A stretch of 64,000 nt of DNA, taken from the NCBI RefSeq assembly GCF_018873765.1, contig NC_057919.1, positions 67,202,984 through 67,266,983 on the forward strand, written 5' to 3'. Positions 21,380-62,999 of this stretch are shown one piece after another (within the stretch, counting starts at the first letter, position 1; each line of letters starts with the position of its first letter). The notes under the pieces are model-generated. The model was not told the origin of the DNA and made no database searches. It saw only the letters and a list, made by a program, of their open reading frames with translations. Made by a program: the position numbers and the translations under genes. The DNA comes from Telopea speciosissima (Eukaryota; Streptophyta; Magnoliopsida; Proteales; Proteaceae).

Positions 21380-22466
21380 TTACTCCTGGGGTAAAAGCTG
21401 GCCATGCCGGTGCAGTGCCCAACCTGAGTCTTATCTCTCTCCCACTTGCTATGGAAGTGACCTCCATGCCGATTGGTTCAACTTTCCTGACTGGTTTGAA
21501 GGTAGTTCAACTGCTGATATTGATAACTCTGTAAAAAGATTTTGGTCTGAACTTCATGCCGACCTTCTTCAAACCATCGCATGCTTTCTGGGTATAGTTG
21601 ACCTTGAAGTACTTGTAAGGCGTGGCGTTCTGCTTTTTTAAATGTTTCAGTTGTAATTGAATCCAAAGCAGACCAAACTCCATGGTTTTTACAGTATTGT
21701 TTCGTCAGCGACCGCTTTTTGTCTGACCCATCGAAAGATCTCCAATACACTAGATATCCCAGAGTTGGAGGATGTGATTTGCATTGCATCCAATGGAGGA
21801 TGGCTTCTTCTGTACAGAGATGATGGTTTGGTCTTCTTCTTCTGTCCTTTCTACCGGGCGAGAATAGAACTTCCACCATTGCTTCATTCAGAGCTTCCTA
21901 ACCTTGTTGCAGAAATCTCTTCATCTCCTACTTCTTAGGACTGCATTGTCTGTGTCAATAATCATAGAATAGCAACACATTGGTGTTAAATTTGATTCGA
22001 CGTGGTGCTACTGAATTGACCACTCATGAGTATCTCGACAGACCAGAGCTCCTACGCACTATTACATGTGTCTCACTCACACTATGACGGGGTTTTCTAT
22101 TTTCTGGACTCTACGGATGCATTAGTGATCTTCTCTCCGAAAAAAATAAAAATGGGTTCCTTACAAGATGGTTGCTCCTAAAACCTCAAATTATACTCCC
22201 TACTCCCCTAGATGCATTACCATTTGATGCAGTACAAGACTACTTTAGCACAAGAAGAATGGTGGAAAGGTTGCTATCATCACCAAAAGATTTTTTACTT
22301 TCAATTTCCATTTGTGGAACAAAGCTCACGGGTATTGACCGCGACTACTACATTCACAATGTGCATATCTTGCAATTCCGCAATGAGGCAGATTTTGGTT
22401 ACATCTATGGAGTATGGATCCAGCCTCAATTCCATCACCTTCCTCCAAGTTATAGTTGGTGCCCTT
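21380..22466 (+). pseudogene. F-box/DUF295 pseudogene (copy A)
   Basis: This is a diverged relative of the three intact F-box genes at 45.7-60.7 kb. An F-box-like segment, ELHADLLQTIACFLGIVDLE, is visible near 21552. The bases for the second half of the F-box (the RFRCTCKAW region of the intact copies) are deleted. Later pieces match in different frames: LEDVICIASNGGWLLLYRDD near 21760, and KLTGIDRDYYIHNVHILQFR near 22325. Frameshifts and stops separate them. It has N-terminal sequence absent from the other copies (HADWFNFPDWFEGSS). It is the oldest unit member and probably non-functional. Confidence 0.88.
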
Positions 22467-22996
22467 GAGGGTTTGATTCTGTTCAACAAATTAGCAATTC
22501 TATCTACATTTGCAATTAGAAACATATATAGATAAAATGTTGACTTGTCCATTTCACACTTCCTTTTCAAATCATAGGATGCAATATTTGATTGTTTATG
22601 CAAACTACTACTGATAAGATTGCAATTTAGTTCCAATCATAGGTTATATTGAATGCTTTCCTTATGGTGCTCATGGGCAGTTTCCTTTCTTCCTTACCAA
22701 GAAGAATTTTTTTCCCTGTTCGATTCTTACTTATTTTAATTTGTAAACTACTAGAAATGGAAATGGAAATTGGTATCTCTGCAGTGGTCCAGGCAGCAGT
22801 AGAGCCTAGTACTTATACGTTAGGTTAAGATTTGTATTGTTTATTGAATGGTGAATCGCAACAAAGGATTAAGTAGTTCTTTTGTTAAGAACAACGATGG
22901 AAGATTCAGTCAGACATACAAGAATGGCAAGTCCCAAGCTATCTTCTATGAATGGTTAACCGTCCAATTTAACATTTTTTTTATTACACATTGGAC
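22467..22996. repeat. 3' flank of F-box copy A, homologous to the other units
   Basis: Homologous, in order, to the sequences after the stop codons of the intact copies, including CAAACTACTACTGATAAGAT and TGAATGGTGAATC. It ends at the copia insertion. Confidence 0.75.
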
Positions 22997-23215
22997 TGTA
23001 AGGGTATTTATGTAATATCCCTTTATATGTTCTAATATAATCCTACTTGTATTAATGCCCAGACTGTGAGGGGCAATCTAGTAATTAGCCCATCTAACCT
23101 AAACCCTAGTTTTCCTATATATACTAGCTGGAGGCAGCAGTCTGGGTATTCCAAAACTAGATACTCAGGGTGTAATGCTTTAAGCAACCTTGTGCTTAAA
23201 ACCCTAACCCTAACA
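22997..23215 (+). repeat. Copia 5' LTR
   Basis: 219 bp, TG...CA. The 3' end contains two telomere-like CCCTAA words, which is coincidental or family-specific. A TATATATA stretch near 23115 could be the promoter TATA element. Confidence 0.95.
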
Positions 23216-23724
23216 ATCTTAAAGCATTAGAGTTTGTGTGATCGACCTTGGAGATTGGAATCACCGTGGCGGTTCTTATACGATCAACTTTGGAGATCAG
23301 ATTTGGCGCCGCTCATCGTTCAAGTCTGCAGGATTTATTCCTCTTTATCCAGAAGCTTTGGTAACCAAAAGTTTTCTGGTTGTTCGTTTGTTTTTTGTTT
23401 GAAAAAAAAAAACAACTAAAGTGTGGCGGGCTCCACCCACAAAGAAGAACTTCTCACCTCTGATAGCAATCGTCGTTGCCAACTACGGCGGCTCTATAGC
23501 GCTGTCATCAGCCGTGGTGGGTAGAGGGTTATTCCTATTTCAACCGAATACAAGCAGTGACTTATTCGGGGTTTTGGTCTTGGTAGCGTTGGAATTCCTT
23601 AACTTCAAAGTTTCTGTTTCAGTTTGATGGAGGAATCCCTCTTTTGGCCGAAAGCCTTCTTTGTCCAAACCTTTGTCAAGAGAAATTACTCTTTTGACCG
23701 TAAGGTTTTTTCAAACCTTCTCTT

Positions 23725-23868
23725 GATTTGACAGTTTGATTGAAAAAGAAAAAGAAAAAGTATTGTTGATTTGATCAAAAAGAAGAGAGAGAAAGGGATT
23801 TGACAGTTTGATTGAAAAAAACAAAGAAAAAGTATTGTTGATTTGATCAAAAAGAAGAGAGAGAAAGG
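23725..23868 (+). repeat. 72-bp tandem duplication in the copia leader
   Basis: Copies at 23725-23796 and 23797-23868 share GATTTGACAGTTTGATTG and GTATTGTTGATTTGATC, with few differences. Confidence 0.85.
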
Positions 23869-24207
23869 GACTTTTGCAGAATACGAATTTTGCAAAAATT
23901 CGTTGGCAGAAAGTTTGCTATTTTCTATTTCCTTTGCTTTGACCATTGAAAAAAAAAAAAAAAACAAAGAAAAGGTAGAAAAAGACAAAACAAAAGTAAG
24001 AAGTTAAAAGAACTTGTGAGAATCTTATTTCCTCTTGATTTCGGCTGTACAAAATCAAATCGGATCTACACCATTAGAGTTAGCACCAACGCCGACGTCG
24101 TCGCACTATCGCGATCTTTTCTTTCGCCGTCTGAATCCAGAGTTCTCCATCTCAGGTGTGATTATTCTTTGAAGTATTTATTTTTTATTTAAGTTTTTAC
24201 TTGGACA

Positions 24208-27200
24208 TATAAACAAATCACTTAACAATGGAGAAACATGCTCTGTTCCAATTGAGATGATCAAATTGGAAAGCTTTAGTGGTTCGAGTTCGGTTCTTGG
24301 AAAAGGAGGACTCGTTTGGATGAAGTACCTCAATATTTTCTACATCGTAGTAAATAAATTTTTCGATTGTACGGACCTAATCGAAGCCCAATGGATAAGT
24401 GACGAAGACTTTTGCAAAGACTACCTATTGAACTCGCTGTCCGATAGGGGAGAGACCTATAGTAAATATGAGACTCGCAAAAGAGATTTGGGAAAACCTA
24501 GAAGCCCAATTCAAAAAGGAGGAGGACCTATCAAAAACTCACTTGGTTGACAAGTTTATGGACTTCAAGTTTCAAGAAGATAAGGAGATACTTCCACAAG
24601 TAATGTGACTTTGAGAACTTGAGAACAAAATTGAACCAAGAAAACATCCCCGTTGTTGATGCATTCTTAGTGGGTGCAATTATCTTTAAGTTACCCTCTA
24701 CCTGGCATTCCTTTAAAACTGAGATGCACAGAAAGAAAACACAAGTGGGGCTGGATGATCTCAAACGGTTCATTAGAATCGAAGATGAGAACAGAGCCAG
24801 GAATAACTTGGAGATGGTGAAACAACAACAGGCATCTGCCAATTTGGTTTCACAACCCAAGAAATATCCTAGGCAGTCCAAGCCACCTAAGAAAGAACCC
24901 CAACAGTTAGAGGCCAAAAAGACTAATTTTAAAAAGAGGGGCAAGTGCCGCAACTGTGGAAAGTGGGGTCACTATGCATCTGAGTGTAGGGGTCCTAAGA
25001 AAGGGAACACTGACACACCACAGAAGGAAGTTCACATGCTGGTGGACAAGACTGAGCCTACTAACTTTGTTGCCATAGTTGGCAAGGGTAAGGGGTTGGC
25101 CAGTACATCTTCAGATTGGTGGTTAGACTTTGGAGTGACTTGTCATGTTTGCAATAGCAAGGACCTGCTCACTGATGTTGTTCAAGTAGCAGTAGATCCG
25201 TTGCAAATGGAGACGCCGTGGAAGTGGCTCAACAAGGGACAACGAACCTGGTTCTATCATCGGTAAAATATTAACTTTGAAAAATGTTAAAATCTTTCCT
25301 AGTTTTGAAAAGAATTTAATTTCCATTGGAATTTTGCTTGATGCTGGCATGTCTATTACTTTTAGTAGTGGTAGAGTAACATTGTCTGTTAACTCCTTTT
25401 ATTTTGGATGTGCTTATAATTTGAATGGTATGTTTAGGTTGAGTTTAGCTAATGAGACAATAAACCAGGTTAACCATAATTCACTTGATCCCAAAATACT
25501 ACATTGTAGGTTAGGACATGTGAACTATAGGAAAATGCTCAAACTAGCTAAAACTCATAATTTACCATTAGACTCTTTAATTAGATTTAACAGATGTGAA
25601 GTGTGTGCTCAAACTAAAATAACTAGAAAATCGTTCAGACCGGTTTCTAGGAGCACTCAACTTCTTGAACTTATACATTCTGACATTTGTGACTTTAAAA
25701 GCTACACAACTAGAGGAGGTTGGAAGTATTTGATGACATTTATAGACGATTTTTCTAGATACTGTCATTTATACCTGTTAAAATCTAAAGATGAAGCTTT
25801 TGAAAAATTTAAAATTTTCAAGAATAGGGTAGAAAATCAGTTGAACTTGAAAATTAAAAGATTTAAAAGTGATAGGGGAGGAGAATACAAATTGACGAGT
25901 TCAAGGAATTCCGTGCCTCTGCAGCATAATCCTTGAAACTATCGCTCCTTACTCACCTCAATCAAATGGCATAGCGAAAGAAAGAACAGGACGTTAACAG
26001 AGATGTTAAACTCCATGTTATTGACAGCTGGTATGCCCTCTTGCTATTGGGGAGAAGCAGTGTTGACTGTAAATCACATTCTAAATAGACTACCACATTC
26101 AAAACTGACTTCTACACCTTATGAACTATGGCATAATCATCCCTGTAGATATGACACTCTTAAGGTTTGGGGCTGTATAGCTTATGTTAGGATACAAGAC
26201 CCTAGGAGACCTAAGGTGGGAACTGGAACAAACACTTGTGTATATCTAGGTTGTGCAGAAGACAGTGCTGCAGACCGGTTTTTGGATTTATCAACCAATG
26301 TGGTGATAGAATCTAGGGATGCTATATTCTTTGAGGATAAATTCCTTAGAGATAAAGGCCTGACCTTGCCTGGTTTAATCGAAGTGGTTACGTAATCACC
26401 TTTGGAATCGAACCAATTATTTTTGACACTACTCCCACAATGCTCCTTGAATCAGAATCTAGAAGAGTATCTACTAGATATCGAGTACCCAAGAATTTTG
26501 GTGAGGATTTTGTGACCTACCATTTAGAGGCTGATCCATCCACCTATAAGGAAGCGATGAGATCTAGGGACTCCCTGTTATGGAAAGAAGCCATTGATGA
26601 GGAAATGAGCTCTTTAATGCAGAATGAGACCTGGCACCTTGTTGATCTGCCTAGAGGGGCCAAGACAATAGGGTGTAAGTGGGTACTGAAGAAGAAACTT
26701 AATCCGGATGGGTCTATAGCCAGGTCTAAAGCACGATTAGTAGCTAAAGGCTATAAACAGGTGAGAGGGATAGATTATTTTGACATCTACTCCCCGGTCT
26801 GCCATTTGGCAACAATAAGGATTCTTCTTACCATAGCATCTATTGAGCACTATGTTGTGCATCAAATGGATGTAAAAATGGCTTTCCTTAATGGAGATCT
26901 AACAGAAGAAATCTACATGAACCAACCTGAAGGTTTGTCATGGAAGGTTCTAAAAAAAGAGTTTGTAAATTAAACAAATCTCTCTATGGTCTTAAACAAG
27001 CACCTAAATTGTGGCATGAGAAGTTTGACAAGACAGTAAAGAGCCTTGGTTTTCAAACCAGCAACTCGGATAAGTGCCTTTATTTTTTGTCTGAGTCAAA
27101 CAAGGTCGCGATTATTTGCTTGTATGTAGACTACATGTTGATTCTAGGTTCTGATCTCTCTGTAGTAAGTGACATTAAAGAAACCTTATCCAAAGAATTC

Positions 27201-27960
27201 GACATGAAAGATCTTGGTGTGGTAGACACCATTCTTGGAATGAGAGTAAGCTTCAGTGAGCAAGGGATCACCCTTAGTCAGACTCATTACATTGAGAAGC
27301 TACTTTCTAGTTGGGGATACAGTGATTGTAAACCGATTGAGACACCCTATGACTACAACAAACGGTTGAAACCTAACACAGGTGACACCATGAATCAGTT
27401 AGATTATTCTAAACTGATTGGTAGTCTCATGTATGCAATGAGTTGCACTAGGCCAGACATAGCCTTTACGGTAGGCATGCTGAGTCGTTTCACTAGTAAT
27501 CCTGGAAAAGAGCATTGGAATGCCCTATCGAGGCTGATGAGATACCTTAAGGGTACTCAATGTTATGCTTTATGTTATAATGGACATCCTCCAACTTTGG
27601 AAGGATATTCTGATGCATCTTGGTGCTCAGATTTGGGAGACAGCAGATCCACCAGTGGTTATGTATTTACACTAGGAGGACAGCATTGAGCATGGAAATC
27701 CAAAAGACAGACTAGTATTGCTCTGTCATCTATGGAATCGAACTTTATGCTCTAGCTGCGGGAGATGAAGCGAGTGGATAAAGGATCTCGATCATGGATA
27801 TTCCATTGAGGAGTTTTAAGTTAAACTCTATATCTATATTCTGTGATAATCAAGCAACCAAGACGATTGTGAATAACTCACTCTTTAATGGTAAGAGGAG
27901 ACACATCAGTGAAACAGGCTATGCTGAATTATAGAACAGAACAAGGGATTATCACTTTGA
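24208..27960 (+). pseudogene. Copia gag-pol remnant
   Basis: Successive frames carry a CCHC zinc knuckle (CRNCGKWGHYASEC, about 24946), a protease motif altered to LDFGVTCHV (usual LDSGATCHV), and a GAG-pre-integrase motif HCRLGHVNYRKM. The integrase core has HSDICDF and FKSDRGGEY, but a frameshift falls near its third catalytic residue at about 25970. RT motifs are KARLVAKGYKQ and [12 protein letters not shown], with YVDY replacing the catalytic YVDD. RNase H ([10 protein letters not shown]) is followed by stops. Frames change at about 25266, 25936, 26395, 26970 and 27689. The element cannot move on its own. The domain order and GWKYLMTFIDDFSRY wording are copia; I do not assign a lineage. 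Confidence 0.93.
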
Positions 27961-28926
27961 TTGATGTGAGATCGAAGGATAATACGGCAGATGCCCTTAC
28001 AAAGAGATTGAACAAAGATCGAACATTCAAAACTACAGGGGAGATGGGGTTAAAGACCATTTAGTCAGGTCTTAACCTAACCCAATATTATTTTGAATTA
28101 TTCGAATCTCATCTAGCCTTGGTAAGCATTCGGGACAGTTTACATGTTTCAGATAACTTAGTTAGGTTATTAAGTATGGGGGTTTGTGAAACCATTCCAA
28201 ACTTGATGGTGTAGCAAATTTTCATGTGAAGTCTCCTTACTTTGCTATTCCACAAAGGAATATGAAAAATGTCTGATATGTTTCAATGATATTGTGCTAG
28301 TCTTTATGTCATTCCAAATTTGATGACATGTCTTTCATAGTATGGTGTACCATTCCAAATTTGATGATACAACATAAATCTATGACTGATATGACGAATA
28401 CAGTATTCCAAATGGAAACATGGTATGGTCCTTATGATAGAGACTATATAGGATCGAGTTCTTGTAAAGAAACTTGAGCTGATGCTTATTGTTTTTTGAT
28501 TTACCTTCAGCCATATATGAAATATACTAAGTTCTTATTGTTGAACTAGATACTATTGTGCAAATGATTGAATTCATAATATCTTATGAAATTCATATTT
28601 GACAAATTACAGAGAATGGCGAAGATGGAGGAGAACGGTTGAATCTGGATCTCGATGAGGATGACTTACTTGATGAGTAAAGTCACATGGATTGCAAGGA
28701 ATTTTCCTTTTGATTATTTCTTTTGGTTTAGCCACTTGCATGTGGAACTTCGGATTTATTGTTGGGTTTAGTTTTGATCTAAAACCTTTGTTTTATTTCT
28801 TGAAGTTTACTTATTTCTTATTTGATTTATTGGATTATTGATATTCAATTTATATTGATTCAATTACTGATTGAACAATGGTTCCTATACATGTGTAATG
28901 GATATATGTAGAACATAGGAGGAGAT

Positions 28927-29145
28927 TGTAAGGGTATTTATGTAATATTCCTTTATATGTTCTAATATAATCCTACTTGTATTAATGCCCAGGCTATGAG
29001 GGGCAATCTAGTAATTAGCCCATCTGACCTAAACCCTAGTTTTCCTTTATATACTAGCTGGAGGCAACAGTCTGGGTATTCCAAAACTAGATACTCAGGG
29101 TGTAATGCTTTAAGCAACCTTGTGCTTAAAATCCTAACCCTAACA
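28927..29145 (+). repeat. Copia 3' LTR
   Basis: 219 bp, seven substitutions from the 5' LTR and no indels. It is followed by the TGGAC target duplication at 29146-29150. Confidence 0.95.
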
Positions 29146-29402
29146 TGGACAACAGACCATGTCCCCTGTTTCGCTCTAAATAGCTGAAAAGCTTAGGGCT
29201 TTTTACTCATAGGTTTATAAAGAGTCCGGCGTGAGGCTCCAAGCAAACAAAAACATACAGGGTTTCATCATTTGAGCCATGGAATGCTTTATAGTTTTTA
29301 AAGCCAAACAACTTTGGATTTTTCATGTCAGATTTTAGAAAATTTAATATTTTATACAAATCTTCATGTGAGGATACAAAGACCATAATCCTGTTTCTCA
29401 CT

Positions 29403-30215
29403 TCAATCTAACTACAAGCAGGCATCTTCTTTACCCCTTGCTCTACCATTCCCTTCCGCACCTTCTCCGCTTCCTTCCATTTGCCCACTTGCACAATACA
29501 AAATTGATAGCAGCATGTAGCTTGCTTCTCTCTGAGGTTCTATGACCATCAAATCCTCTCATACCTTTTCCCCAAGCCCCACATTTCAATGCGCAACACA
29601 TGTTTCTCTAAGCTTTCCTACTTACTTTCCTTGAATATTTCTCAACCAACTCTATTTCTTCTTTCAAGTACCCACCCCAGCCAAGGATGGCCACCATGCA
29701 AGTAATGTGATCTGCTTCATGAGCAAGTCCATAAGCTGATATCATTGATTCAAAGAACACCAACCCTTGCTTTATTAGCTCCGAGTGACTACATGCCATT
29801 AACAACCCAATGAAGGTCACTTTATCAGGCCTTACACCAGAACTTACCTTCTCTTCATAAAGCTTTACAGCTTCAAAAGCCTTAACATGTAGCCCAAACC
29901 CAAATAGCATTGCATTCCAAAAGACCAGATCCTTATTTTGATTATATAAGTAAAAGCTTGGCATGATCTTTCTAAGTCACCACCCTTGCTTTACGTGTTT
30001 ACAAAGCCAATGCCCTCGTAGCCTCGTAGGTGAAGGAATGGAAAACCACGGCGGAATGCAAAGCCATGTACCATTCTTCCACACCCAAGAACTGCCAAGT
30101 TAGAACATGCATGAAGGATGGCCCCAAAGATAAAGTCATCGGATTTGATCAGATTCCTCATCATGTACGTCAACAAAGAAGCCAAGGGCCTCTTCTCCAT
30201 GCCTGTTCTTTGCAT
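29403..30215 (-). pseudogene. PPR pseudogene, unit A
   Basis: The minus strand reads as PLS-type pentatricopeptide repeats of an organelle-RNA-binding family. Pieces include SDDFIFGAILHACSNLAVLG, GRMVHGFAFRRGF, DLVFWNAMLFGFGLHVKAFE, VRPDKVTFIGLLMACSHSEL and ISAYGLAHEADHITCMVAIL. Typical PPR genes encode a long intronless protein; here the frame is broken between 29964 and 29991 and there are stops further on, and only the C-terminal repeats are present. Unlike units B-D it keeps the LYEEKVSSGVRPDKVTF segment, so it represents the older form. It faces the F-box gene tail to tail. Confidence 0.85.
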
Positions 30216-39006: not shown

Positions 39007-39183
39007 AGGATCAGTTGCAGTTAGTTTAGTTATTTTCATGTTTCAAGAATTTTGAAGTCTTTTTTTTTCAAGTAGGATTTTTCAAAGTTTTTCCAAATTG
39101 AAGATTAACAAGAAATGAAAGCTCTTAGCTGCACTTCCCCATTGTCGAGCACTTCTCCATCGCCGATCAAGTTCACATCAAGG

Positions 39184-39545
39184 CTCTATGCAAACCAAGG
39201 CCATCGATCACAAGGCTCTATGCCAACCAAGGCCATTGGCCATGAGGCTCTATGCCAACCAAGGCCATCGGCCACAAGGCTCTACGCCAACCAAGGCCAT
39301 TGGCCACGAGGCTCTATGCCATCCAAGGCCATCAGCCACGAGGCTCTGTGCTAACCAAGGCCATCGGCCACGAGGCTCTATGCTAACCAAGGCCAAAGGC
39401 CATGAGACTCTATGCCAACCAAGGCCATCGGCCACAAGGCTCTATGCCAACCAAGGCCATCGGCCTCGAGGCTCTATGCCAACGAAGGTCATCGATCACA
39501 AGGCTCTATGCCACCAAGGCCCTTTGGCCATGAGACAACCAACAA
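39184..39545 (+). repeat. 32-bp minisatellite, about 11 copies
   Basis: The unit contains CCAACCAAGGCCATCGGCC and ACAAGGCTCTATG, with period 32 counted between successive CTCTATGC words (39184, 39216, 39248 and so on). Copies carry substitutions; the last is partial. It lies between the integrase end and the antisense ORF, the region where plant Tat-group elements often carry tandem repeats. The ORFs crossing it are by-products, since 32 is not a multiple of three. Confidence 0.92.
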
Positions 39546-43841: not shown

Positions 43842-44825
43842 CCTGAGGGTTTGAATCTATTTAACAAATTAGCACTTCTCTCTGCATTTGTTATCAGAAA
43901 CATATATAGAGATAAATTGTTGACTAGTCCATTTCACACTTCCTTTTCAAGTGATAAGATGCTAGATTTGATTGTTTATGCAAACTACTACTGATAAGAT
44001 TACATTTTATTTCCAACCATAGGTTATTAAGTGCTTGCTTTCCTTATGGTGTTCATGGGCATTTTCCTTTCATCCTTACCCAGAGGAATTGTTATCTAGG
44101 GGTGTAAATGAATAGCCAAAATCCGTTTTCGTATCCGTGTCCGTATCCGTTTAGCACTATCCGAATCTGTTCGAAAGCTAAACAGATGCGGATACGGATA
44201 GGCTATAGCTATCCGAAAAGCTATATTTACATGTAAACGGATAAAATATCCGATCCGTATACGTGTCCGTATTCATTTAGCACTATCCGAATCCGTCTGA
44301 TAGCTAATCGGATGTGGATGCGGATATAACATTATCCGAGCCGAATCCAATCCGTTTACAGCCCTATTGTTATCCCTGTTTGATTCTTACTTATTTTAAT
44401 TTGCAAAATTCTAGAAATGAAAATGGAAATTGGTATCTCTGCAGTCTCCAAGCAGCAGCAGTGGGTCATGTAGCAGCGCCTAATACTTGTAATTTTAACA
44501 GGATCCTTCTTTTTATTGAATGGTGAATCACAACAAAGGATTAAGTAGTTCTTTGTTAAGAAAATTGACATTATTTTGATTACGCAATAGAAACCAGACC
44601 ATGTCCCCTGTTCAGCTCTAATTTGTTGAAAAGTTTGGGGTTTTTTACTCGTAAGTTTATAAAGTCCAGCATAAGGCTCCAAAGCTGAGATAATAAGGAT
44701 CCTAAATTTTCCTAATTTTGTTTTAGTGTGATTACAGAAACAAAAACATAAAGGGTTTCATCATTTGAGACATAGAATGCCTTATATAGTTTTCAAAGCC
44801 AAACAATTTTGGATTTTTCATTTTA
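43842..44825. repeat. Partial F-box unit (3' flank only)
   Basis: It starts at CCCTGAGGGTTTGAATC, which is the stop-codon region of the F-box genes. It follows their downstream sequence through ACCAGACCATGTCCCCTG and ACATAAAGGGTTTCATCATT to about 44825. The F-box coding part is missing on the left, replaced by transposon sequence. A hAT element lies inside. Confidence 0.8.
44097..44366. mobile_element. 270-bp non-autonomous hAT element with empty sites in paralogues
   Basis: Termini are TAGGGGTGTAAATGAA and, complemented, TAGGGCTGTAAACGG. The 8-bp duplication TTGTTATC (44089-44096 and 44367-44374) is perfect. Homologous positions at about 48088, 53463 and 60840 read GAATTGTTA(T/C)CCCTGTTTG without insertion. 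ATCCGTATCCG-type subterminal repeats fill the element. Confidence 0.94.
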
Positions 44826-47874: not shown

Positions 47875-48639
47875 CCCTGAGGGTTTGATTTTGTTTAACA
47901 AATTAGCACCGCTCTCTCTGCATTTGCTATCAGAAACATATATAGATAAAATGTGATTGTTTATGCAAACTACTACTGATAAGATTACATTTTATTTCCA
48001 ACCATAGCTTATTGAGTGCTTTCCTTATAGCTTATTGAGTGCTTTCCTTATGGTATTCATGGGCTGTTTCCTTTCTTCCTTACCAAGAGGAATTGTTATC
48101 CCTGTTTGATTCTTTCTTATTTTAATTTGCAAAATCCTAGAAATGGAAATGGACATTGGTATCTCTGCAGTCTCCAAGCAGCAACAGTGGGTCATGTAGC
48201 AGCGACTAATACTTGTAATTCTAATAGGATCCTTCTTTTTATTGAATGGTGAATCACAACAAAGGATTAAGTACTTCTTTGTTAAGAAAATTGATATGGA
48301 AGATTCAGTCAGACATACAGGAATGGTTCAATTTGACATTATTTTAATTACACAATGGAAACCAGACCATTTCCCCTGATCAGCTCTAATTCGTTGAAAA
48401 GCTTGGGGTTTTTTACTTGTAGGTTTATAAAGTCCAGTGTAAGGCTCCAAAGCTGAGACAATAATGATCCTAAATTCATAATTTTTATTTTAGTGTGATT
48501 ACACAAACAAAAACATACAGGGTTTAATCATTTGAGACATGGAATGCTTTATAGTTTTTAAAGCCAAACAACTTTGGATTCTTCATTTCAGATTTTTGAA
48601 ATTTTGATACTTATACAAATCTTCCATGTGAGGATATGA

Positions 48640-53275: not shown

Positions 53276-54039
53276 CCCTGAGGGTTTGATTTTGTTTAAC
53301 AAATTAGCACCTCTCTCTGCATTTGCTATCAGAAACATATATAGATAAAATGTGATTGTTTATGCAAACTACTACTGATAAGATTACATTTTATTTCCAA
53401 CCATAGCTTATTGAGTGCTTTCCTTATGGTATTCATGGGCTGTTTCCTTTCTTCCTTAACAAGAGGAATTGTTACCCCTGTTTGATTCTTTCTTATTTTA
53501 ATTTGCAAAATCCTAGAAATGGAAATGGAAATTGGTAATTGGTATCTCTGCAGTCTCCAAGCAGCAACAAGTGGGTCATGTAGCAGCGACTAATACTTGT
53601 AATTCTAATAGGATCATTCTTTTTATTGAATGGTGAATCACAACAAAGGATTAAGTACTTCTTTGTTAAGAAAATTGATATGGAAGATTCAGTCAGGCAT
53701 ACAGGAATGGTTCAATTTGACATTATTTTAATTACACAATGGAAACCAGACCATTTCCCCTGTTCAGCTCTAATTCGTTGAAAAGCTTGGGATTTTTTCC
53801 TTGTAGGTTTATAAAGTCCAGCGTAAGGCTCTAAAGCTGAGACAATAATGACCCTAAATTCCTAATTTTTGTTTTAGTGTGATTACACAAACAAAAACAT
53901 ACAGGGTTTAATCATTTGAGACATGGAGTGCTTTATAGCTTTAAAAGCCAAACAACTTCAGATTTTTCATTTCAGATTTTTGAAATTTTGATACTTATAC
54001 AAATCTTCCATGTGAGGATATGAATTTTTCCCAACTACA

Positions 54040-58536: not shown

Positions 58537-60651
58537 ATGGAGTTTTATCGTACAACGGAAAACAGGTATAATCAAAATCTTCTTTTTTTTTTGGTCTTTC
58601 GAAAGTATAAAGCATCGATCCTAGATAATAAATACTGCTCTCTATCTCTAAAGTTGTTTTTTTTTTTTTTTTTTTTCATATAGCATTGGATCATCAAGAA
58701 TCTACATACTACTGCTTGCTCACTATTTCTCTTTAATTTGGAAATAAATTTTCATCCCATCCTCGTTTTTTTTTTTTTTTTCCCCTTTCCTTTTTCATTG
58801 TTCTTTGCCACACAACAACATTATTGTGGAAAAGAAGCAGAGGTGGATCTCCAATAATTCCTCCGCTTAGGATGTTCATCACTTGTTCTTTGTTTGTCTT
58901 TTTTCCTCTCATATTTGGGGAGGGAGTCTCTGCAAAGGGGAGAATGCCTCTTGATTTTGAAGGAGAATAGATATGGGTTGGTAAGAGATTCAGTGGGCAA
59001 CTTGTTTTTTGTGCAACAATCTATGGATGAAGAGGATCTTGGAAGATAGACCAGAAAATTTACATCTTATCAGCTACCTAATCTTCATGTTGCTTCATTC
59101 TTGGACACCCTGGATTGGGTCCTTCTGCTTGGTCTTTCCCAACTAAATGAGTTGAAATCCTATCTTGCCTTATAACTTCTGTTAAGAGCCATCTTTGTTG
59201 TCTAATGTTGGATATCTCTCTCTCATGGTATGCAATTTTCTTTTTGAATTTTCTCCTTTTCTATTTGGAGGAGTTGTTGCTCTACACTTCCAAAAAATGC
59301 ATAAAGGATGACTCCACCCTCCCATCAAATCTACATGAAGTTGTGCAAGATTGACAATACCAACAAAAACTCTTAGTTTTCTTTTTGGTTAGACCAATGT
59401 AATAAAACTCCTACATATCGATGATTGACAAGTAACTGTGATAACTTCTTAGAAAATCAAACATGGATCTCAAAAGGATTGTGATTATTTTTGCTTTGCC
59501 AATGGTTCCTGCTTGTGCAATTTGGTTATGACAAATGTATCTTGAGGCTCCTCTGTTTTTGTGCTTATAAATTTGATTAAGGATATAGGTTTGATCTTCT
59601 TTCACTCTCTATAACTGAAACTCACAGTTTCTTATTGGGATTGTTACATCATGTATTCCTTAATGTTACTGGCAGGAACTGCCTACGTGCCTCAGCTGAA
59701 GAAACCAGTCAAGAAGAAGGTAGTTCAATTGCTGAACTTCATGCTGACCTTCTTGAAACTATCGCATGCCGACTGAGTATAGTTGACCTTCTGCGTTTCC
59801 GCTGCACTTGTAAGGCATGGAGTTCTGCTTCTTTTAATGTTTCAGCTGTAATTGATTCCAAAACATACCAAACTCCATGGTTTTTTCAGTTTTGTCTCGA
59901 AGGCGAATTCATGTTGTCGGACCCATCAGAACAAGATGATTGTTACGATATAGATATCCCTGAGTTGGAGGATGTGACTTGCATTGCATCCAATGGAGGA
60001 TGGCTTCTTCTGTACAGAGATGATGGTTTGGTCTTCTTCTTCTGTCCTTTTTCCCGGGCGAGAGTAGACCTTCCATTATTGCCTCTACCATTGCCTCGAC
60101 TATTGCTTCATTCAGAGCTTCCTAAACTTGTTGCAGCAATCTCATCATCTCCTACTTCTCAGGATTGCATTGTCTGTGTCATTAATCATAGAAATAGCAA
60201 CACACTGGTGTTAAATTTGATTCGACGTGGTGCTACTGAATGGACTACACATGAGTATCATGACGGACTAGAGCGCCTACGCACCATTACATGTGCCTCA
60301 TACTATCACGGGGTTTTCTATTTTATGGACTCTATGGATTCATTAGTGACCTTCTCTCCGGAAAAAATAAAATGGGTGCTTCACAAGATAGTTGCTCCTA
60401 CGTTACCATTTGATGCAGTAAAAGACTACTTTAGCACAAGAAGAATGGTGGAAAAATTGCTATCACCACCACCAATAGATATGTCAGTTTCAATTTTCAT
60501 TTGTGGAACAAAGCTCACGGGTATTGACCGCGACTACTACATTCACAATGAGCATTTCTTGCAATTCGGCAAAGAGAGAGATTTTTCTTGCGTGTATGGA
60601 GTATGGATCCAGCCTCGACTCCATTACCTTCCTCCAAGTTATAGTTGGTGA
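58537..60651 (+). CDS. F-box/DUF295 protein, copy D
   Basis: Exons 58537-58565 and 59676-60651 encode 334 residues. Exon 1 ends AACAG|GTATAATC, so the junction codon is AGG (Arg) rather than the GGG (Gly) of copies B and C. The F-box core is intact, though the tryptophan motif reads AWSSAS rather than AWRSAS. The propeller ends LPPSYSW as in the others. Exon 2 and the end of the intron are almost the same as copy C, whereas the outer flanks differ by several indels. Predicted functional; partner and substrate unknown. Confidence 0.85.
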
Positions 60652-61238
60652 CCCTGAGGGTTTGATTTTGTTTAACAAATTAGCACCTCTCTCTGCATTT
60701 GCTATCAGAAACATATATAGATAAAATGTGATTGTTTATGCAAACTACTACTGATAAAGATTACATTTATTTCCAACCATAGCTTATTGAGTGCTTTCCT
60801 TATGGTATTCATGGGCTGTTTCCTTTCTTCCTTACCAAGAGGAATTGTTATCCCTGTTTGATTCTTTCTTATTTTAATTTGCAAAATCCTAGAAATGGAA
60901 ATGGAAATTGGTATCTCTGCAGTCTCCAAGCAGCAACAGTGGGTCATGTAGCAGCGACTGATACTTGTAATTCTAATAGGATCCTTCTTTTTACTGAATG
61001 GTGAATCACAACAAAGGATTAAGTACTTCTTTGTTAAGAAAATTGATATGGAAGATTCAGTCAGACATACAGGAATGGTTCAATTTGACTTTATTTTGAT
61101 TACACAATGGAAACCAGACCGTTTCCCCTGTTCAGCTCTAATTCTTTGAAAAGCTTGGGGTTTTTTACTAGTAGGTTTATAAAGTCCAGCGTAAGGCTCC
61201 AAAGCTGAGACAATAATGATCCTAAATTCCTTCCTAAT

Positions 61239-62831
61239 GGGGAAAGGTTTCGTACACGGTCGTGTAAACCGTGTACGAAACCTTTCCCCCCCCCCCCCCC
61301 TTTACTTTTTGCAAATTACTTTTCATTCACAATTTTCTCTCTCTCCTCTATTCATCTCTCTCGTCTCTATTCACCTCCTCTCTGCAACTGTGAGCGGGAG
61401 CGACGAAGGCCTGGCGGAAGACCAAAATCGAACCACCATTCCCTCGTCTCTATTCATTTCTCTCATCTCTACCTACCTCTGACTTTTATGCTTTTCCACA
61501 AAATTACTTTTCATTCCCGATGTTCTCTCTCTCCTCTTTGTTCATCTCTCTCGTCTCTATTCACCTCCTCTGCAACCTGCATGTGAGAGTGAAGAGGGCC
61601 TGCCGAGTGCCGGAACAGTAAACTGGGTTTATTGCAACCCAATTGCATTGTACAGATATTCATCCCATTACAGACCCTAAAAATTTAAGAACAAAGAAGA
61701 TACTAAAAACTGACTATATTCAATGAATTTTTTTTTTCAGCTTCTGGTTTTTGAGAATTTTGGGCAAGGATAGATTCATAGATAGGCTGGATATGGCATA
61801 GCTCTCTCTCAAAAAGCCAAGTATATTGTGTATAAGCACATGTGAGAAAGCATTTAACACAGGGAAGAAGATGCATTGCATTGCACCCTTCCTTGGTTTT
61901 ATCAGTAAATCATTCACTCATTTATAACTGAATCATCAAATTCCACACACAAATTGTAACTCCTTTCGCACGAACTCCAATCCTCCTCTTATTCGCTCTC
62001 CATCCAAATTTAAACCCTATTTTCCTCATTCTCTCTTCAGATTTCAGAATAGCCCAACAAATGGATGCTAACATAGTAACAGATCTCAAGTCGGAGGAGC
62101 AGCTCTTCTTCGAATGCCTCTAGAACCCAGAACCTCTGGAGCTTCAGAGGTGAACAAGAAAATTTTATTTTACTTCTCCGTAATTTCTATCTGTATTGAT
62201 CTTATTTACTTACAAGTGTAGTAATCATCTTTCTGAACTTGCAGATGCAGTGCAAAAGAAATTACCCATAACTTCGATTCTCTTGCTCTTCATAACAGTC
62301 TCTTTGATGCGCATTACGAACCCTTTGTTGGTTCATCAATGGCAATAGATTTGATTTCATCCCAGCTCCCGCCGCTCCCAAATTTGAATTTGGAATTTCA
62401 ATCTTTTGATGTTTTCGATTGGTTGGATCGCTACCTTTCTCCCAATGGAGGTTCGATTATGCTGTTCCGGCACTCGGCAGGCCCTCTTCACTCTCACATG
62501 CAGGTTGCAGAGGAGGTGAATAGAGACGAGAGAGATGAACAAAGAGGAGAGAGAGAACATCGGGAATGAAAAGTAATTTTGTGGAAAAGCATAAAAGTCA
62601 GAGGTAGGTAGAGATGAGAGAGATGAATAGAGACGAGGGAATGGTGGTTCGATTTTGGTCTTCCGGCAGGCCCTCGTTGCTCCCGCACGCAGTTGCAGAG
62701 AGGAGGTGAATAGAGACGAGAGAGATGAATAGAGGAGAGAGAGAAAATTGTGAATGAAAAGTAATTTGCAAAAAGTAAAAGGGGGAAAGTTTCGTACACG
62801 GTTTACACGGCCGTGTACGAAACCTTTCCCC
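61239..62831. mobile_element. 1.59-kb long-TIR DNA element with hairpin tips
   Basis: Terminal inverted repeats are about 380 bp (61239-61618) and 370 bp (62462-62831), near-perfect complements through GGCCTGCCGAGTGCCGGAAC. Each tip is itself a palindrome: at the left, two 22-bp arms (61239-61260 and 61268-61289, GGGGAAAGGTTTCG...) around a 7-base loop, then a C run. The other units read through the site (CCTAAATTCCTAATTTTTG), so the insertion is private to unit D. A target duplication is not clear. The centre carries a spliced gene fragment and no transposase. Confidence 0.88.
62061..62569 (+). pseudogene. Intron-containing gene fragment inside the long-TIR element
   Basis: Exon-like 62061-62149 begins MDANIVTDLKSEEQLFFECL, has an in-frame TAG, and ends at a GT donor. 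A 95-bp intron ends CTTGCAG, and exon 2 from 62245 continues in phase as CSAKEITHNFDSLALHNSLF, then SSQLPPLPNLNLEFQSFDVF and DWLDRYLSPNGG. The frame then runs into the right TIR and stops at 62569. Codon-like sequence and clean splice sites indicate captured host genomic DNA. I do not recognise the parent gene. Confidence 0.65.
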
Positions 62832-62999
62832 TTTTATTTTAGTGTAATTACACAAACAAAAACATACACGGTTTAATCATTTGAGACATGGAATGCTTTA
62901 TAGTTTTTAAAGCCAAACAACTTTGGATTCTTCATTTCAGATTTTTGAAATTTTGATACTTATACAAATCTTCCATCCGATGATATGAATTTTTCCCAG

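Follow-up and report, generated by a model that had tools for sequence, protein, structure and literature searches.

A palindrome-ended, probably Mutator-type family of gene-carrying elements in Telopea speciosissima

The locus and its 1,593-bp insertion

The window, by which we mean the whole stretch of 64,000 bp analysed here (C4:67202984-67266983, from the 823-Mb genome of Telopea speciosissima), contains genes for F-box/KIB1-4, PPR and Arf proteins as identified with Pfam. A tandemly repeated unit composed of an F-box/KIB1-4 gene and PPR pieces is present in three, in part five, copies between 44000 and 64000, with relatives at 21500-30200. The fifth copy of the F-box/KIB1-4 unit holds a copia-type LTR element (22997-29145) with 222-bp repeats at 96% identity, bordered by a 5-bp duplication, TGGAC (22992-22996 and 29146-29150), which was read by eye and served as a check on the method. 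A minisatellite comprising 10.7 copies of a 32-bp unit (39181-39521) lies inside one long open frame.

Positions 61239-62831 constitute a 1,593-bp insertion in which inverted arms of 370-380 bp enclose a cargo of about 825 bp, and these arms are the sole inverted repeat of at least 150 nt in the 64 kb under the settings used. A sequence-only reading of the window had described this stretch as a long-TIR element with arms of that length and a hairpin of about 50 bp at each tip, which is borne out by the present analysis: the 324-nt arm core is 98% complementary, the left hairpin is perfect and the right one has a single bulge. The features of the element, its flanks and the paralogous empty sites are as follows.

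44640 to 44775, + strand: paralogous empty site c4, junction near 44716
48420 to 48540, + strand: paralogous empty site c1, junction 48482/48483
53800 to 53925, + strand: paralogous empty site c2, junction 53866/53867
61218 to 61238, + strand: left flank, with an extra TTCC relative to empty sites c1 and c2 and without a 9-bp duplication
61239 to 61618, + strand: left terminal inverted arm, made up of the tip and two tandem subunits, with matches at 26 other fetched loci
61239 to 61289, strandless: left terminal palindrome, 51 bp, perfect 22-bp arms and a 7-nt loop
61313 to 61435, + strand: outer tandem subunit (left arm), with approximate limits (repeat pair, spacing 188)
61501 to 61618, + strand: inner tandem subunit (left arm), adjoining the cargo
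61620 to 62446, + strand: cargo, homologous to the RWP-RK gene on C6
62061 to 62149, + strand: captured exon 1, from alignment to the C6 gene
62150 to 62250, + strand: captured intron 1, GT...AG, its exact acceptor placed from the reading frame and not from transcripts
62251 to 62446, + strand: captured 5' part of exon 2, from alignment to the C6 gene
62462 to 62831, - strand: right terminal inverted arm, with subunit similarity extending inward to about 62444
62782 to 62831, strandless: right terminal palindrome, 50 bp, one bulge
62832 to 62842, + strand: right flank, which at the empty sites follows the left flank directly

Over 380 gapped columns the two arms are 95.3% identical, differing by nine substitutions, all in the outer 220 bp, and by 10 gap columns that mostly reflect a C run of differing length. 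The tandem subunits behind the tip are 188 bp apart and are 83-86% identical over blocks of about 105 bp, an arrangement of outer and inner arm copies similar over 100 bp or more that corresponds to the multiple-arm class as delimited in an extract of PMC3310237. The tip sequence had no match in viral_contigs or genome_contigs, and the window element had none in plasmids.

Family members, terminal palindrome and cargo

A genome search with the left arm returned 64 matches (40 of 249 candidates scored), from which 27 loci were fetched, the window copy included. A second arm search returned 51 matches (40 of 294 candidates scored) and added 11 further places, three of which were fetched (L075, L076 and L077). 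Both tips of 17 among the 27 loci, and one tip of eight more, entered an alignment (42 tips, 25 loci) whose consensus, GGGGAAAGGTTTCGTACACGGTCGTGTAAACCGTGTACGAAACTTTTCCCC, is palindromic and has 13 invariant columns; three CGTGTA boxes can be read from it in each tip. All nine interior groups distinguished among 26 compared elements possess the tip, as do the three later loci (100%/98%, 100%/76% and 92%/88% identity over the aligned part), and the palindrome is therefore a family trait. Neither is the hairpin a private mutation of one copy nor the element a single-copy inverted duplication lacking a family, given its occurrence at 27 + 3 loci.

Within the palindrome 91.9% of cells pair, against 35-56% when the partner is slid by one to three columns. 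Pairing is not in excess of that in column shuffles (91.9 vs 91.7%), nor is covariation (4 pairs changed on both sides vs 3.1 in the shuffles), and several copies have GTAAC for GAAAC in the second half of the palindrome, which breaks a pair. Selection for a folded hairpin is thus unsupported and, judging from the aligned tips, the palindrome is conserved as sequence. A comparison of the tip with the rest of the arm gave 88.6% at positions 1-51 vs 71% at positions 81-150 (18 arms from nine elements) but carries no weight here, the alignment beyond the tip being doubtful because the left and right arms of one element are 72.5% alike and arms of different elements 71.2%. Matches to the query arm span about 120 to 314 positions in most of the other interior groups. 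In L075 and L076 they extend over only about 70-120 bp of a query arm, and behind the tip these two loci have no match to the window arm. Two loci have irregular ends. The left tip of L011 is doubled (1001-1073), with a second, more diverged palindrome outside the first, and L030 has further tip pieces in both orientations just beyond its right end (2713-2870), which suggests a second element adjoining the first.

The whole cargo of the window copy matches C6:67040507-67041331 at 95.5-96% identity. In the C6 gene the reading frame continues into an RWP-RK domain (E 1.7e-23) located downstream of the captured piece. The sequence-only reading had proposed two exon-like pieces separated by an intron, and a parent gene; alignment to this longer related gene supports the exon/intron/exon layout, and the C6 RWP-RK gene is the likely source of the cargo, which would run from its upstream sequence through exon 1 and intron 1 into part of exon 2. 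A source gene inside the window was ruled out, as the cargo matched only itself in the 64 kb. The exon-like peptide had no match in Pfam or NCBIfam, and a single PDB match at E 0.54. The apparent exon 2 ends in arm sequence, which starts at about 62447, and an AAT at the right junction (62444-62446) is common to gene and arm. The same 825-bp cargo is present at four loci including the window copy, the other three being 97.7-98.2% identical to it, and the whole elements with shared cargo are 95.3-96.9% alike; the loaded element has therefore multiplied. Exon 1 of the window copy reads TAG at 62121-62123 where the three sisters and the C6 gene read TGG. Because the four copies share many differences from the C6 gene, capture from this gene or a close relative preceded multiplication. 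No arm match was found in the 9.9 kb around the C6 gene.

Several of the nine interior groups carry host gene domains. Pfam searches of 10 interior frames identified LRR, ADH_N and DUF3464 (PAM68) above cut-offs and TAPR1-like and PAS below them, with nothing for five; of ten frames searched in addition, including three from the window element, one gave DUF3464 and the others nothing, and two of the later loci contain LEA_2 and inositol-phosphate synthase pieces. By these matches, the members appear to hold parts of genes from the LRR, alcohol dehydrogenase, PAM68, LEA_2 and inositol-phosphate synthase families and, weakly, PAS. No transposase domain was detected with Pfam in four frames of the window element or in 19 frames of 17 other loci. 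One element (L032, 1284-1766) includes a long proline-coding run, coding for glycine on the other strand, which may reflect expansion of a C run or an artefact of assembly. It is conceivable, although we think it unlikely, that the 51-bp palindrome is a self-sufficient mobility module, such that the DNA between any two copies could be moved by one unseen transposase. If true, this would explain both the likeness of the tips despite the differing arm sequence behind them (L075, L076) and the presence of pieces of many different genes in the members.

Target duplications, movement and the empty sites

Target duplications were assessed in the 18 fetched copies with both ends readable, using as control the left flank of one copy paired with the right flank of another (n = 306). 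Nine loci with one end missing or unclear were left out (L015, L021, L022, L024, L026, L029, L031, L032 and L033), L017 was counted among the 18 despite its shortened left tip, and the three later loci were counted apart. With the boundary free by one base, 9-bp duplications having no more than one mismatch are present in 16 of 18 copies vs 12 of 306 control pairings, and perfect ones in 11 of 18 vs 1 of 306. Fixed boundaries give 10/18 vs 1/306, and two bases of freedom 16/18 vs 23/306. By length, perfect copies number 11 at 7 bp, 12 at 8 bp, 11 at 9 bp, one at 10 bp and none at 11 bp. The copies collected with their flanks thus define a target-site duplication of 9 bp, the two misses among the 18 being L028 (2/9 mismatches) and the window copy (5/9). 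Among the later loci the duplication is perfect in L076, 8/9 in L075 and 7/9 in L077. The three sisters with the same cargo as the window copy have 9-bp duplications that are perfect in two cases and 8/9 in the third (TAATGTTAT in L010, TAAAAATAA in L012 and ATAATTAAA/GTAATTAAA in L011). AT content in the 5' flanks (26 elements) averages 82% within 30 bp and 63% at 100-500 bp.

We consider these elements to be best explained as a non-autonomous, palindrome-ended and gene-capturing cut-and-paste family of the Pack-MULE type, moved in trans by a Mutator-type transposase (probability about 0.85). The resemblance to Pack-MULEs remarked on in the sequence-only reading is upheld by the gene fragment with its intron, by the length of the arms and by the 9-bp duplications seen in the sisters; a duplication of 9 bp has been termed typical of MULEs (PMC4486113). 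The family is very probably of the Mutator kind, as judged by the 9-bp duplication, the long arms and gene capture; no autonomous partner was seen among the MULE hits scored. A transposase encoded by another element would recognise the ends, perhaps via the palindrome with its CGTGTA boxes, which is a good candidate binding site, and would cut out the element and reinsert it into AT-rich DNA with a 9-bp stagger, producing the 9-bp duplication. The 5' part of the RWP-RK gene may have been acquired through a repair or template-switching event, after which the loaded element multiplied to at least four places. For animal Pack-TIRs, the excerpted text of PMC8277862 describes capture by template switching or by gap filling, with short stretches of shared sequence as the guide; the AAT shared by gene and arm fits such short-homology capture, and is too short to serve as proof.

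A reading to which we would give somewhat less than even odds places the family in a foldback-type Mutator lineage, like FARE in Arabidopsis and MuTAnT in Medicago, with secondary gene acquisition, rather than in the classical Pack-MULE line. The modular arms, tandem subunits and palindromic ends speak for such a lineage, and the difference between these ends and the MuTAnT mask GGGGTTTGCTAGAACA (PMC4486113) speaks against it; it overlaps with a trans-mobilised Pack-MULE-type family and does not exclude it. MULE transposase domains are numerous in the genome (150 scored of 828 candidates), and none of the 150 scored hits is within 71 kb of any of the 27 loci; likewise, no tip was found within about 1.5 kb on either side of 30 MULE hits. 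This lack of a neighbouring scored hit would suit a non-autonomous element moved by a transposase from another superfamily that also makes 9-bp duplications, but we regard such a mover as improbable, as Mutator is a good match for the long arms, the gene capture, the GGG...CCC ends and the AT-rich 9-bp duplications.

The window copy is situated exactly between AAT and TTTT, and its flanks CTTCCTAAT and TTTTATTTT mismatch at five of nine positions, so that it has no 9-bp duplication. Taken by itself, this would be in keeping with a new superfamily with hairpin-directed insertion and no target duplication, comparable to Spy (as presented in an extract of PMC4482050) or to Helitron-type elements, but 9-bp duplications at the sisters, including the three with the same cargo, make this highly improbable and rule out insertion without duplication as a family trait. 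Two oddities had been pointed out from the sequence alone; the palindromic tips prove to be family-wide, whereas the missing duplication is real at the window copy and does not extend to the family. It looks like a defect of the window copy alone. Most simply, a later local event could have cleaved the DNA precisely at the element's left end, trimmed the left flank past the duplication and rejoined the ends with TTCC as filler. The extra TTCC of the window copy lies a few bases left of the element, and c4 differs in length in the same stretch. Duplications of 8-10 bp were recorded for 45 of 53 complete elements of Tm1, a nematode Mutator/foldback family, in an extract of PMC3169594, so some Tm1 elements have none either. 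One copy without a target duplication is poor evidence for a new mechanism.

At c1, c2 and c4 the sequences bordering the element are joined directly and the element is absent; a fifth paralogue, which does not have the stretch containing the site, was left out of this comparison. Since these paralogous sites in the window are empty, the element is an insertion and not an in-place inverted duplication, and a single event of the latter kind caused by replication error, for which the likeness of the arm core (about 98%) might be cited, has a negligible probability in view of the empty sites, the family at many loci and a source gene on another contig. The nine substitutions between the arms, set against divergences of 3.3-5.0% between paralogous flanks near the site, are compatible with insertion of the Pack-MULE-type element after duplication of the unit, without being decisive. 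Upstream of the element, c2 and c3 show 3 differences over 1,200 aligned bases (59336-60535) and 22 over 549 nearer the element, a step in divergence that looks like gene conversion or recent exchange.

Comparison with known systems

Listings of open-licence papers on palindrome- or hairpin-ended elements and on Pack-MULEs with RWP-RK contain no description of this family, and four tip strings searched in the same literature, as far as its text was covered, gave a sole match in a work on Corynebacterium that is unrelated to judge by its title and abstract. Palindromic or foldback ends in Mutator-type elements (Muta1, MuTAnT and FARE1) and Pack-MULEs with tandem arms are already known. Tomato (PM-ZIBP) and Arabidopsis have Mutator elements whose long arms are tandem and which contain gene fragments (PMC3310237, in extract). 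The window element is like these MULEs in its long arms, tandem subunits at both ends and host gene fragment, and the family is like them in having several copies of one loaded element, target duplications and no transposase of its own. Unlike them, it has a conserved 51-bp palindrome at its ends, and in the window copy this palindrome lies outside the repeated subunit.

MuTAnT of Medicago truncatula (PMC4486113) shares GGGG/CCCC ends, 9-nt duplications and modular arms able to fold back, but has a different end sequence, is mostly 200-300 bp long, targets TA microsatellites and has a known putative autonomous partner. FARE1 of Arabidopsis, compared by description only as cited in PMC4486113, similarly has palindromic repeats at both ends, folds back and is classed as a MULE. 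Muta1 of Aedes aegypti, according to an extract of PMC5225508, has a palindromic terminal motif followed by tandem subterminal repeats, 8-9-bp duplications and non-autonomous derivatives with varied interiors; it differs in that its palindrome is 10 bp long and imperfect, its subterminal repeats are 12 bp and its host is an animal. The present family provides a worked case of gene-fragment capture in which the likely source, the junctions, the loaded copies, the sister duplications and the empty sites are all readable. Its conserved palindromic ends offer a handle on which portion of a Mutator-type end movement requires, and the family allows one to ask whether terminal palindromes promote capture. 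Set beside these known systems the family is ordinary in kind, and the large conserved terminal palindrome is its unusual part.
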